Shown here piece by piece: positions 55,690-59,633 of a DNA stretch of 64,000 nucleotides. The notes beneath the pieces are model-generated. The model worked only from the letters and a program-made list of their open reading frames with translations. It was not told where the DNA came from and ran no database searches. Position numbers and translations under genes: made by a program. This stretch comes from Pseudacidovorax sp. (GTDB lineage: Bacteria > Pseudomonadota > Gammaproteobacteria > Burkholderiales > Burkholderiaceae_C): NCBI RefSeq assembly GCF_017991995.1, contig NZ_JAGOPN010000015.1:62001-126000 (forward strand). Reading direction: 5' to 3'. Numbering within the stretch: the stretch's first letter is position 1; every line of letters begins with the position of its first letter.

Positions 55690-56658
55690 TCAATGCGCGT
55701 GACCGTGATGGTCGTGCGTTGCGGCATGGCGGCTGCCACCCACGCCGTGCCCCCAGACGACAAAGGCTTCCTTGCCCTCCACCGCGAGATCGACGGTGGC
55801 CCCCACCGGCAGCAGCACCTTGGTCGGCACATGGCCGAAGGGCAGGCCCGTGAGCACCGGCGCCTTGAGCTGGCTGCGCAGCCGCTCCACCACCGTCTGC
55901 AGCTTGAAGCCCCGGTCGTGCGGCGCGGCGCGGTAGCCGGTGAACTGGGCTAGCACCACGGCCTTCTGACGGGCCAGCACACCGGCCAGGCGCAGCTGCT
56001 CCAGCATGCGCTCGATGCGGTAGGGATGCTCGCCCACGTCCTCCAGAAAGAGCACGCCCTTGTCCACCTGCGGGAAGTACGGCGTGCCCAGCAGGCTGCA
56101 CAGCACGGCCAGGTTGCCGCCCCACAGCGTCGCGCCGCGAATGGGCCTGAAGCCCGGCACCTCGTCACGTGCCGGCAGGCGCCAGCCGGTGCCTTCGCCG
56201 TAACCCTCGACCAGGTCGTCGAAGCAGGCGGCGGTGATCTCATCGATGCCTTCCTCGGCACCGAAGTCGCTGCACAGGGTCGGACCGGACCAGGTGGCGG
56301 CGCCCGTGCGCGCCAGCACCGCGAGCTGGAAGGCCGTGAAGTCGCTCATGCCGACGAAGGCCGTGCCGCGCTCGATGGCCTTGGCCACGGCCTTGTAGGG
56401 AAGGCCGTCGAGGATCCGGGTGAGGCCATAGCCGCCGCGCGAGGCCAATGCCACGTCCGCGCCGCTGGCCGCGGCCCGTGCGATGGCGGCGATGCGGGTG
56501 GCGTCGTCGCCGGCGAATCGCTGCTGCGCGGACAGCGCGGCCTCGTCGATCTCCACCTCATGGCCCTGGGCCCGCAGCCAGGCCACTCCGCGGCGGAAGG
56601 CCGGCTTCTCGCGCACGGCGCTGGAGGGGGAGTAGATGTAGATGTGCTTCTTGTTCAC
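55690..56658 (-). CDS. ldcA: LD-carboxypeptidase (muramoyltetrapeptide carboxypeptidase)
   Basis: Peptidoglycan-recycling serine peptidase (family S66) that removes D-Ala from muropeptide tetrapeptides in the cytoplasm. It has 322 residues. N-terminal IYIYSPSSAV; catalytic Ser in FVGMSDFTAFQLA; GGNLAVLCSLLGTPYFP; Glu in FLEDVGEHPYRIERML; base His probably in LPFGHVPTKVLLPVG. The start is GTG at 56658, which overlaps the tadA stop by 4 bp (GTGA). The extreme C-terminus is unusually His-rich (HAATHDHHGHAH), a possible metal-binding tail. Confidence 0.93.
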   Translation of the reverse strand: MNKKHIYIYSPSSAVREKPAFRRGVAWLRAQGHEVEIDEAALSAQQRFAGDDATRIAAIARAAASGADVALASRGGYGLTRILDGLPYKAVAKAIERGTAFVGMSDFTAFQLAVLARTGAATWSGPTLCSDFGAEEGIDEITAACFDDLVEGYGEGTGWRLPARDEVPGFRPIRGATLWGGNLAVLCSLLGTPYFPQVDKGVLFLEDVGEHPYRIERMLEQLRLAGVLARQKAVVLAQFTGYRAAPHDRGFKLQTVVERLRSQLKAPVLTGLPFGHVPTKVLLPVGATVDLAVEGKEAFVVWGHGVGGSRHAATHDHHGHAH

Positions 56659-57839
56659 TCGCGGGAGTATCCCATCGGCCCTTCGAGGGCCTGCCACCGG
56701 GCGGCCAGCGCGCGGGCCGCGTCTGCGGACAGGTCCTGCACGGGGCGGCGGCGCGCGGCCCACGCGCGCAGGGCGGCCTCGTGGCCCTTGTCGGGGAAGG
56801 GCGCCGCCCAGGCACGCGCCGCGTCCTCGGCGGCCGCACCCCGCACCACCAGCGCCGCGGGCGGGATGACGAGGCGCGGGCCAGCGATCGCGCCCTGCCC
56901 GGCCAGCAGGTCGGCCAGCCCGCTCATGTCGGGATGCAGGATCAGTCCGACCTCGCCGACGCCCAGCGCCGCCAACCACTGCCGCAGCACTTCCGCATGC
57001 CATTCGCGCGTGTGCAAGGCTTCCTTCTTGGGCTTGTCGCTGCGACCGAAACCGATCAGGTCAGGGATCAGCACGCGATGGCCCGGCAGCAGGTCCGGCA
57101 GGTGCCGGAACAGGTGGCCCCATTGGCCCGCACCGTGCAGGCACAGCACCACGGGGCGGCGTTGCGTGCAATCGCCCGCAACGCCGCCCCGGTCGACATA
57201 GGCCAGCCGCAGGCCGCCCAGCGCCGGCAGTTCGCTGACGAAGGCATGCGGCCCGTCGAAACCGGCGAAGCGCGCCTCGGGCGTGCGCAGCGCGTCGTCG
57301 CGCACCGGCTGCGCCTGCGCCCGGGCCTGGGCACGCCGCCCGCGGAAGAAGTCTTGCAGCAGCGCCCCGCATTCCTCGTCCATCACGCCGCCCTGCACCG
57401 CGGTGTGGTGGTTGAGCTGGCCGATGCCGAAGAGGTCGAGCACCGATCCTGCCGCGCCGGTGCGCGCATCGGCCGCACCGAAGACCACACGGTCCAGCCG
57501 CGCATGCAGCATGGCGCCGGCGCACATGGCGCAGGGCTCCAGCGTCACGTAGAGGGTGCAGCCGTCGAGCCGGTAGTTGCCCAGCGCCTGCCCGGCCGCC
57601 CGCAGCGCCGCCATCTCGGCATGGGCGCTGGGGTCGTGCGTCGCGACCGGCGCATTGCGCCCGGTGGCCACCATGCGGCCGTCGCGCACCAGCACGGCAC
57701 CCACCGGCACCTCGCCTGCGGCGGCGGCGGCGCGGGCCTCGTCCAGCGCCAGTGCCATCCAGCGATGGTCCTCATCCTGCGGTGCACCGTCCGCGGGCAG
57801 CCCGGCTGAGGTCTGGGACAGCGGCTCGACCATCGGCAT
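56655..57839 (-). CDS. tadA: tRNA adenosine(34) deaminase TadA fused to a haloalkane-dehalogenase-like domain
   Basis: Protein of 394 residues. Residues about 22-170 form TadA, which makes inosine at the wobble position: zinc ligands His73 (HAE, with catalytic Glu75), Cys103 and Cys106 (PCAMC). From about 184 (LRTPEARFAGFDGPHAF) a second domain resembles the DhmA-type haloalkane dehalogenase N-terminus and core: VVLCLHGAGQW, VLIPDLIGFGRSDKP, nucleophile-site Asp304 in LHPDMSG, and APFPDKGHEAALRAW at 345-360. It stops about 30 residues later, so the strand bearing the catalytic His is missing. Usual TadA is about 150-170 residues. The start overlaps the upstream paiB-like stop (TGATG) and the stop overlaps ldcA (GTGA). 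The second domain is probably non-catalytic as a dehalogenase. Confidence 0.93.
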   Translation of the reverse strand: MPMVEPLSQTSAGLPADGAPQDEDHRWMALALDEARAAAAAGEVPVGAVLVRDGRMVATGRNAPVATHDPSAHAEMAALRAAGQALGNYRLDGCTLYVTLEPCAMCAGAMLHARLDRVVFGAADARTGAAGSVLDLFGIGQLNHHTAVQGGVMDEECGALLQDFFRGRRAQARAQAQPVRDDALRTPEARFAGFDGPHAFVSELPALGGLRLAYVDRGGVAGDCTQRRPVVLCLHGAGQWGHLFRHLPDLLPGHRVLIPDLIGFGRSDKPKKEALHTREWHAEVLRQWLAALGVGEVGLILHPDMSGLADLLAGQGAIAGPRLVIPPAALVVRGAAAEDAARAWAAPFPDKGHEAALRAWAARRRPVQDLSADAARALAARWQALEGPMGYSRE

Positions 57840-58459
57840 CAGCGTCCGACGCCGGCCCGGTCCATCCAGGCCTCCAGCCCCGCGGCCTCGCCGCCCTGCG
57901 CGGCATGCAGGCGCCGCATCGCCGCATGGGCTTCGGGCCGATGCTGGTTGAGCTTGAGCTTGCATTGCCAGCCGACGACCTTCAGCTCGAAGGCGACGAT
58001 GCCGGCCAGCATGCGGCGCTGGTAGTCCTCGCCCAGATCGCGCCATTGCTGTGCATAGGGCGGCTCGTGCTGGCCGATGAGTTGCTTGAGCAGGGCGTCC
58101 TTCGTGTCGGCCTCCGGCAGCAGGGTGGCGCGCACGCGGCAATGGACGGCGACGTAGTTCCAGGTCGGCACCCGCTGGCGGTCCGGGTAGACCGTCGGCG
58201 AGACGTAGCCGTGCGGCCCCAGGAAGACCACCAGCGCCTCGGGCCGCGCCTGCAGCTGCTTCCACTGCGGATTGGCGCGCGCCACGTGGCCCAGCAGCGT
58301 CCACTCGCCCGTGTCGTTCGAGGTCAGCACCAGCGGCAGGTGGGTGACGAAGGGAAAGCCGTCGTCGTCGTTGGTCACGAGGCTGGCGAAGGGATGCTCG
58401 CGCATCAGCTGCTCGGCGAGCGCGGGATCCTCGGCGTCAAAATGGGCGGGCAGGTACAT
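57839..58459 (-). CDS. paiB: PaiB-type FMN-binding protein
   Basis: Split-barrel flavin-binding protein of 206 residues of the PaiB 'transcriptional regulator' family. MYLPAHFDAEDPALAEQLMREHPFASLVTNDDDGFPFVTHLPLVL, FLGPHGYVSPTVYPDRQRVPTWNYVAVHCRV and GIVAFELKVVGWQCKLKLNQHRPEAH are family blocks. Named after a Bacillus gene linked to sporulation and protease control; in proteobacteria the role is unclear. First gene of the operon paiB-tadA-ldcA, divergent from the DUF72 gene across 76 bp. Confidence 0.92.
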   Translation of the reverse strand: MYLPAHFDAEDPALAEQLMREHPFASLVTNDDDGFPFVTHLPLVLTSNDTGEWTLLGHVARANPQWKQLQARPEALVVFLGPHGYVSPTVYPDRQRVPTWNYVAVHCRVRATLLPEADTKDALLKQLIGQHEPPYAQQWRDLGEDYQRRMLAGIVAFELKVVGWQCKLKLNQHRPEAHAAMRRLHAAQGGEAAGLEAWMDRAGVGR

Positions 58460-58535
58460 GGCGGACCTTGAAAGGCGAAGCGGGCGATTGTCCCGCCTGC
58501 CATGCCCGAGCCCCGCACCCGCCCTCTCTCTTCGC

Positions 58536-59633
58536 ATGCAGGACTCACTTTTCGGCGACGACCTTCCCCTTCCCGCGCCCCCGCGCCCGGCACCGGCCGA
58601 CGTGGGGTCAACCGCCGCGCCGCCAGCCGCGGACGAGGCGGCCCCGCCCAAGCGCCGTGCCAAGGCCGGCATGCCCAAGGTGGAGCCGGCCGATGTCGAC
58701 GAGCGCCTGCGCGATCAGGCCGTGCGCCTGCCGCCGTTGCTGCGCCTGGGCAGCTCTTCCTGGCATTTCCCGGGCTGGGCAGGCCTGGTGTGGAACGGCG
58801 ACTACGAAGGCTCGGTGCTGTCGCGCCACGGCCTTGCGGCCTATGCGCAGCATCCGCTGCTGCGCACCGTGAGCCTGGATCGCAACTTCTACCGCGCGCT
58901 CACCGCCTCGCAGTTCGCCGCCTATGCGGCGCAGGTGCCGGAGGACTTCCGCTTCGTGGTCAAGGCGCCGTCGGCTGTCAGCGATGCCCTGGTGCGCGCC
59001 GAGGATGGCCGGGGCCAACGCCCCAACCCGGCCTTCCTCAACCCCCAACTGGCGGTGCAGGACTTCGTGGAGCCGGCCCTGCAGGGCCTCGGCACCAAGC
59101 TGGGTGCGCTGGTCTTCCAGCTCAGCCCCCTGCCGGGCACGATGCTGGCGCACATGCCCGAGGTGCTCGCGCGGCTCGACGCCATGCTGGCCGCCCTGCC
59201 CCCGCTTCAGCCCGCCGCGCCGGACGCGGTGGTGGCCGTGGAAGTGCGCAACCCCGAGTTCCTGACGCCCGACTTCGCACGCGTGCTCAAGGCCCGCGGC
59301 GCCACCTACTGCCTGGGCCTGCATCCGAAGCTGCCGCCCATCGAGGACCAGTTGCCACTCCTGCGCGCCCTGTGGCCCGGCCCGCTGGTCTGCCGGTGGA
59401 ACCTCAACCGCCTGCACGGCGCCTACGGCTACGAGGAGGCCAAGGGCCTGTACGAGCCCTTCAACCGCCTGGTCGATCCCGATCCGCATACCCGCGGCCT
59501 GCTGGCCCGCGTGATCGCGGGCACCACCGGCGCCGGCCATACGGCCTACGTGACCATCAACAACAAGGCCGAGGGCAGCGCCCCGCTGTCGGTGCAGGCG
59601 CTGGTGGACGCGGTGCTGGGCGAGACGTCCTGA
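58536..59633 (+). CDS. DUF72 family protein
   Basis: Protein of 365 residues. After a disordered Pro/Ala-rich N-terminus (about 1-60) comes the TIM-barrel-like DUF72 domain: LRLGSSSWHFPGWAGLVWNGDY, YAQHPLLRTVSLDRNFYRALTASQFAAYAAQVPEDFRFVVKAP, LGALVFQLSPLPG, VEVRNPEFL, and YVTINNKAEGSAPLSVQALV. DUF72 (YecE) proteins have no established reaction. ATG at 58536 is chosen because it precedes the variable N-terminus; no strong ribosome site is visible. It converges with the pqi operon. Confidence 0.9.
   Translation: MQDSLFGDDLPLPAPPRPAPADVGSTAAPPAADEAAPPKRRAKAGMPKVEPADVDERLRDQAVRLPPLLRLGSSSWHFPGWAGLVWNGDYEGSVLSRHGLAAYAQHPLLRTVSLDRNFYRALTASQFAAYAAQVPEDFRFVVKAPSAVSDALVRAEDGRGQRPNPAFLNPQLAVQDFVEPALQGLGTKLGALVFQLSPLPGTMLAHMPEVLARLDAMLAALPPLQPAAPDAVVAVEVRNPEFLTPDFARVLKARGATYCLGLHPKLPPIEDQLPLLRALWPGPLVCRWNLNRLHGAYGYEEAKGLYEPFNRLVDPDPHTRGLLARVIAGTTGAGHTAYVTINNKAEGSAPLSVQALVDAVLGETS

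Follow-up and report, generated by a model that had tools for sequence, protein, structure and literature searches.

On the reverse strand of the window, the stretch of 64,000 nucleotides of Pseudacidovorax sp. analyzed here, a single uninterrupted frame encodes a TadA-type deaminase followed by a decayed domain of the haloalkane dehalogenase (HLD) type. The host is a soil bacterium with a genome of 6.24 Mb, and HLDs are enzymes that degrade pollutants. The fusion gene overlaps both of its neighbors, an ldcA-like gene downstream and an FMN_bind_2 gene upstream, the product of which we take to be PaiB-like. The genes, domains, and motifs are given below with the residue numbers of the fused protein.

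56655..57839 (−): tadA-HLD fusion gene, 394 residues, ATG start, TGA stop, frame uninterrupted
55690..56658 (−): gene for an ldcA-like LD-carboxypeptidase (Peptidase_S66), downstream neighbor
57839..58678 (−): gene for an FMN_bind_2 protein, upstream neighbor; its TGA overlaps the tadA ATG (TGATG)
56655..56658 (−): GTGA overlap of the tadA stop and the ldcA start (GTG), read from the sequence
57309..57773 (−): TadA deaminase domain, residues 23–177; NF008113, 199.8 bits (cut-off 150)
57615..57623 (−): HAE motif, residues 73–75, read as a motif
57522..57536 (−): zinc motif PCAMC, residues 102–106, read as a motif
57333..57350 (−): FFRGRR, part of the C-terminal helix of TadA (154–175 in the model) that bears the extra domain
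56658..57308 (−): decayed HLD domain, residues 178–394; NF002043 on 182–301, and the model matches HLD structures after TadA ones
57279..57305 (−): junction VRDDALRTP, residues 179–187; R, D, and A typical of fusions
57120..57140 (−): LHGAGQW, residues 234–240; former oxyanion region, Asn of HGNP lost
57024..57065 (−): PDLIGFGRSDKPKK, residues 259–272; constrained loop with the fusion-typical KK
56919..56936 (−): HPDMSG, residues 302–307; once the nucleophile elbow (QDWGG in intact relatives), now relaxed
56760..56804 (−): APFPDKGHEAALRAW, residues 346–360; retained cap segment with the fusion-typical GH

The two halves of the fused protein

Profile, Pfam, and PDB-chain matches confirmed the original prediction of a TadA fused to a decayed HLD-type domain, with the reading frame and length as described. 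The first half is a complete deaminase: it passes the NF008113 cut-off, carries HAE and PCxxC, and is encoded in a genome that also contains tRNA-Arg(ACG), the tRNA recognized by bacterial TadA (PMC8216470). Residues H73, A74, E75, C103, and C106, as well as F164, F165, and R169, are invariant across the 82 rows of alignment A1. The fused gene was the sole TadA match in the genome at E ≤ 1e-40, and the idea that a second TadA had freed the fused copy was rejected; three weaker matches (E 2e-21 to 3e-10) were taken for other deaminases. With its motifs intact, the fused deaminase most likely performs the usual TadA chemistry. It differs from the TadA described by NF008113 in about 217 extra C-terminal residues of hydrolase descent. 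The enzyme had been called essential, which is not to be assumed here because TadA of B. subtilis is reported as dispensable (PMC10454642).

Similarity of the second half to α/β hydrolases lies well above chance. It matched NF002043 (PRK00870, haloalkane dehalogenase) with 93.1 bits (E = 2e-26; residues 182–301 on profile positions 2–121 of 302), Pfam Abhydrolase_1 with E = 1.7e-11 (44.7 bits, cut-off 25.8), and PDB chain 1b6g, a haloalkane dehalogenase, with E = 2.9e-19 over residues 182–330. The curated NF002043 cut-off of 265 bits was not reached. The domain had been described as the first two thirds of an HLD; the N-terminal part of an HLD is indeed present, but the contiguous alignment spans only about 120 residues, and a separate remnant of the cap, APFPDKGHEAALRAW, overlooked in that description, follows an internal deletion. 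Compared with the PRK00870 HLDs (PDB 1b6g, 2xt0, 7avr), the window protein shares the N-terminal part, the GxGxSDKP loop, and the cap segment, but has internal and C-terminal deletions and is without the nucleophile, both Trp residues, the acid, and the base. A frameshift at the 3′ end that hides the rest of the HLD was ruled out. The GTG of ldcA starts inside the tadA stop codon, leaving no hidden C-terminal half, and none of the 20 matches of the HLD subfamily profile in the window genome lay above the cut-off, the best being the N-terminal HLD stretch of the fused gene itself.

Fused relatives and the loss of the catalytic residues

The former HLD, presumably a member of HLD subfamily I, was scored at five catalytic residues, which we take to be those equivalent to Asp124, Trp125, Trp175, Asp260, and His289 of DhlA. 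In the window protein the columns of the cap Trp, the acid Asp, and the base His are all gaps, and the Asn of HGNP is lost from HGAGQW; the absence of the catalytic His and the altered oxyanion motif had both been noticed correctly. The view that Asp304 is a retained nucleophile did not survive alignment, in which Pro303 occupies the nucleophile column and Asp304 the Trp column, columns near the deletion varying with the alignment. An Asp close to the nucleophile position is what would speak for a protein that is still a dehalogenase by way of Asp304. The base His, the acid Asp, and both halide-binding Trp residues are missing, however, and Asp304 is not conserved within the genus, its position being Gly, Ala, or Ser in the same-genus relatives L021–L023, so that this reading is hardly credible.

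The fusion was present in all 15 sampled genomes of the window genus, and at E ≤ 1e-40 the fused query had a match in 383 of 399 genomes of the family, a count that takes in matches to TadA alone or to the HLD alone. In an order-wide search (399 genomes, E ≤ 1e-75), four genomes outside the family, all in family f3, matched across both halves. Among the matches listed, the nearest named one was Pseudacidovorax sp. NFM-22, with 93% identity over the HLD half. Among the best 80 loci of 537 relatives, which are not a census and were scored apart from the set below, a decayed domain was found in Variovorax, Xenophilus, Comamonas badia, Hylemonella gracilis, and Acidovorax sp. Leaf160, and all five residues in Curvibacter delicatus, Hydrogenophaga pseudoflava, and Simplicispira hankyongi. 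A contig labeled Akkermansia muciniphila (L298) carries a fusion of the beta-proteobacterial type and is probably misbinned. No paper on a TadA-dehalogenase fusion was found in titles and abstract openings, and novelty is not proven since subscription journals lay mostly outside the literature searched.

The alignment comprised 201 rows: 57 intact, 129 dead, three excluded, and 12 that were TadA-only or short (L174 ends at a contig edge). Any departure from Asp-Trp-Trp-Asp-His was scored as dead, which includes nearly intact cases such as L189. Excluded from the dead class were L037 (a phosphatase fusion), L088 (a stop in frame), and L091 (badly trimmed); the duplicates L039 (of L025) and L078 (of L028) had been removed beforehand. 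L098 was left unscored; in this locus (genome G327) TadA is encoded in one frame and the HLD in another that overlaps it, either through a true frameshift or through an assembly error. The protein of L018 is identical to that of L017 and was kept within the 129 but excluded from the pooled pN/pS and the 97-row tree described below. All five catalytic residues were present in 57 of 186 fused proteins, so a full-length form with the catalytic His exists among the relatives, and the intact domain could be aligned to PDB chains 2xt0 and 7avr. The ratio 57:129 is not a frequency, as nearly all partial matches were included and 33 full-length matches lie outside the set.

Decay is extensive in the 129 dead fusions. 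The nucleophile Asp is missing in 121, the base His in 121, and all five residues in 78; retention amounts to 6% for the nucleophile Asp and the adjacent Trp, 8% for the acid Asp, 6% for the base His, and 29% for the cap Trp, and the Asn of HGNP is retained in none. Milder states were also seen. In the fused HLD of L189 (genome G354) the nucleophile Asp is replaced by Gly and the other four residues are intact. In that of Ramlibacter aurantiacus (L294), four of the five are kept and Leu replaces the base His (DWWDL), apparently a recent inactivation.

The intact fusions L025, L042, and L029 scored 317–347 bits, above the HLD subfamily cut-off of 265, and pN/pS at the intact elbow was 0.03 (15 pairs, 10 genera), a strong constraint. 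For these two reasons the intact fusions are probably working dehalogenases or related hydrolases. When the 74 scored genera were compared, 28 contained only intact forms, 35 only dead forms, and 11 both kinds. Provided that genus labels and bins are correct and that the active site was not regained, about 11 losses follow from the mixed genera alone. Tested on the TadA part, a single origin of the dead state was rejected (p-AU 5e-5; 50 dead, 44 intact, and 3 outgroup rows). The TadA-part tree of 197 rows gave 37 irreversible losses, and that of 97 rows, in which most inner branches are weak (53 of 94 open), gave 23 changes against a mean of 31 (range 21–37) in 200 label shuffles. A longer alignment, extended into the start of the HLD half, yielded 15 irreversible losses, a count not relied on because this alignment includes the decayed region itself.

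How the domain came to be joined may be read from relatives. In three relatives without it (L183–L185), an ldcA-like frame, recognized by eye, directly follows tadA. The f3 fusions (L029, L313, L314, L315) have an internal ATG at the old HLD start, preceded by a GAGGAG-type sequence in three and by GGAGAG in the fourth, which in at least three of them resembles a ribosome-binding site, and may still make a separate HLD from it; in L025, GGGAGGA stands ahead of an ATG. This arrangement suggests that an HLD gene was inserted between tadA and ldcA and joined in frame, and that its own start has since disappeared from most members of the family to which the window belongs. The reverse step also seems to have occurred. 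In G186 (genus g48, L358), TadA alone is followed by an ldcA-like frame. The other sampled members of the genus are fused, and the L358 TadA is nearest to fused ones (73%–76% identity vs 63%–68% for six TadA-only rows), so that a complete secondary loss of the domain has apparently taken place.

Constraint on the disarmed domain

Substitution rates were obtained as simple counts (NG86 type). The HLD half of the window protein showed ω of 0.20–0.51 against its five nearest relatives, with 1.1–2.5 in shifted-frame controls. Within the genus, nine pairs tested gave 0.19–0.51 (shifted frames ≥1.11), and 11 pairs from other genera gave 0.20–0.43 (shifted frames ≥0.80). In 208 within-genus pairs of dead fusions from 23 genera, the true frame lay below both shifted frames in 206. 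Pooled pN/pS over these pairs was 0.57 for the whole HLD half and 0.29 for TadA; the dead half as a whole is clearly more relaxed than TadA. Across all degrees of kinship, and in a set that included rows later dropped, median ω of the HLD half was 0.65 in 3,726 dead pairs vs 0.24 in 666 intact pairs. The constraint is unevenly spread: pooled pN/pS was as high as 0.73 at the old elbow, and three islands had low values of 0.22 (junction), 0.35 (SDKPKK loop), and 0.27 (PxPDxGH). A sliding-window analysis of two subclades within the genus gave the same picture, pN/pS rising near the old nucleophile and being low at the junction, at APFPDKGH, and from HG through GFGRSDKPKK. By these counts the disarmed domain is not plain junk, and selected segments of it are under purifying selection.

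These observations bear on the suggestion that the domain is a passive fossil of a gene fusion, its frame held open by translational coupling through the overlap of the tadA stop with the ldcA start and its amino acids mattering little. Such an overlap is indeed present in the window as GTGA, and a start codon is found between −4 and +3 relative to the stop in 49 of 162 fused loci with a recognized ldcA (186 fused loci examined). Coupling needs no domain, however, as the arrangement in L183–L185 illustrates, and it is the protein frame that is selected: islands of amino-acid constraint were observed at ordinary synonymous rates, and they match the former structure. Purifying selection in close relatives, together with the retention of the fusion-typical residues described next, disfavors the fossil, to which we assign a low probability.

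The retained residues, numbered here as in trimmed L025, were compared between 56 intact fusions, 129 dead fusions, the four f3 fusions, and 28 standalone HLDs. R156 (within TadA), R172, D247, G250, G252, S254, and D255 are unchanged in all 129 dead fusions; in the loop PDLIGFGRSDKPKK of the window the corresponding D, G, G, S, and D are likewise constant in all 129 decayed relatives. In the FPDxG segment, P367 is kept in 94%, D368 in 95%, and G370 in 98%, the preceding residue being Phe or Tyr. As motifs, RxDA was found in 121 of 129, KK or KR in 123, PDxG in 122, and the last His in 106. A decayed yet conserved domain spans many genera, which the original prediction had named as support for a repurposed module. 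Many of the fully kept residues, and GxGxSDKP with them, are near-invariant in standalone HLDs too. R167, D169, A170, KK258–259, G370, and H371, on the other hand, are typical of intact and dead fusions alike, and each occurs in fewer than 30% of the standalone HLDs (each of the junction residues R, D, and A in at most 25%). The f3 fusions resemble standalone HLDs at most of these positions, with Asp169 in three of four.

Since the fusion-typical residues are common to intact and dead fusions, the domain would have acquired a second role before catalysis was lost; this is the main argument for that order of events. The strongest rival is a domain that simply rides along, has no function, and is selected only for foldability, as misfolding would harm the attached TadA. 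Foldability alone could keep the GxGxSDKP residues shared with standalone HLDs, and most of the invariant residues are of this kind; the core is modeled with high confidence while the rest is relaxed, and one lineage, G186, is without the domain. This account fits less well with RxDA, PKK, and GH, whose retention is close to that of the shared structural residues, and a useless domain could be truncated, while one full loss is known and few candidates were examined. We regard the ride-along domain as rather unlikely, roughly a one-in-four prospect.

Another possibility is a new catalytic site built from those Asp, Lys, Ser, and His side chains that persist (SDKPKK, H276, H281, FPDxGH). The polar set D247, S254, D255, K256, K258, H263, H268, and D368 (trimmed L025) is conserved, each in at least 95% of the 129 dead fusions. 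Most of these residues are frequent in standalone HLDs too, however; no known catalytic template was recognized, and the last His is present in just 106 of 129. A new active site is accordingly very improbable.

Structure prediction pointed to a domain that still folds. AlphaFold2 was run on 82 rows, and the model of the decayed fusion has a mean pLDDT of 87.9 and a pTM of 0.74 (72–98 per ten-residue block over 181–390), vs 92.4 and 0.72 for an intact relative. The modeled decayed domain appears to keep a small α/β arrangement, and Pfam Abhydrolase_1 was still recognized in 75 of the 82 members of A1, eight of them intact. In a Foldseek search with the decayed model, TadA structures ranked first and HLDs next; the HLD matches 7avr, 1bee, and 2xt0 had E values of 4e-12 to 3e-11, and TM-scores of 0.37–0.49 with an rmsd of 8–9, values that refer to the two-domain model. 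DSSP assigned two-residue bridge elements at 183–184 (AL of the linker) and 269–270 (KP of the SDKP loop) in the decayed model, and the intact model has them at the corresponding sites, 163–164 and 249–250. The linker and loop elements may pair with each other, the DSSP strings naming no partners. The net charge of the dead domain has a median of 0 (+2 in the window), and a strongly RNA-binding surface is unsupported by charge.

A possible accessory role for TadA

Our preferred reading, held with moderate confidence, is that the window gene is the genome's TadA joined to what was once an HLD domain, which no longer catalyzes and persists as a noncatalytic accessory domain of TadA. The sequences show the in-frame joining of an HLD to tadA within a tadA-HLD-ldcA order, the loss of its active site on several occasions, and the retention of parts of it under selection. 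While still catalytic, the domain would have gained a further role linked to TadA. Arg and Asp of the linker and the two Lys of the loop, all charged and fusion-typical, could act as a clasp anchoring the domain where the TadA C-terminal helix ends, both the clasp and its use being inferred. So clasped, the domain might stabilize the C-terminal helix or the dimer, or help to position tRNA-Arg(ACG). With catalysis dispensable by then, its repeated decay would have spared the clasp and the fold that supports it.

Binding of the anticodon stem-loop requires the TadA C-terminal helix (PMC8216470), and a domain attached there would for that reason be well placed to brace the helix, the dimer, or the tRNA body. 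Perhaps, then, the dead domain braces the tRNA-binding helix. Counting against an accessory role, the zinc residues and the helix of TadA itself are retained, and TadA has no visible dependence on the domain; the apparent loss in G186 and the relaxation of the dead HLD half as a whole also speak against it. The structural or binding module that had been proposed for the extra residues would be of this kind.

A known parallel is ADAT3 of the eukaryotic ADAT2/ADAT3 deaminase, which likewise joins a TadA-type deaminase to an extra domain and may offer a counterpart in tRNA positioning. In ADAT3 the extra domain is N-terminal and the deaminase half inactive (PMC8216470). The extra domains are unrelated, and in the window protein the deaminase is intact and the added C-terminal enzyme dead. 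A second case, TadA-Y_phosphatase3 (L037:1462-2730, from another family; E = 4e-58), is an independent C-terminal enzyme fusion, the partner being unrelated to HLDs. More tentatively, and as a possibility we would put below even chances, the captured dehalogenase may serve as a tRNA- or dimer-positioning domain, matching the N-terminal domain of ADAT3 in role, though not by descent. The second role would have come first, after which at least some 11 lineages would have lost the chemistry independently and converged on much the same reduced domain.

For annotation the family calls for caution. The disarmed fusions tested matched the dehalogenase profile with 93–175 bits, below the curated cut-off of 265, and surveys at loose thresholds could therefore count them as dehalogenases. 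For biology, the family amounts to a replicated natural experiment, in which one fusion has undergone many independent losses of chemistry with much the same pieces kept. With intact and disarmed forms inside single genera, the step from enzyme to accessory domain in the translation apparatus would be directly testable.
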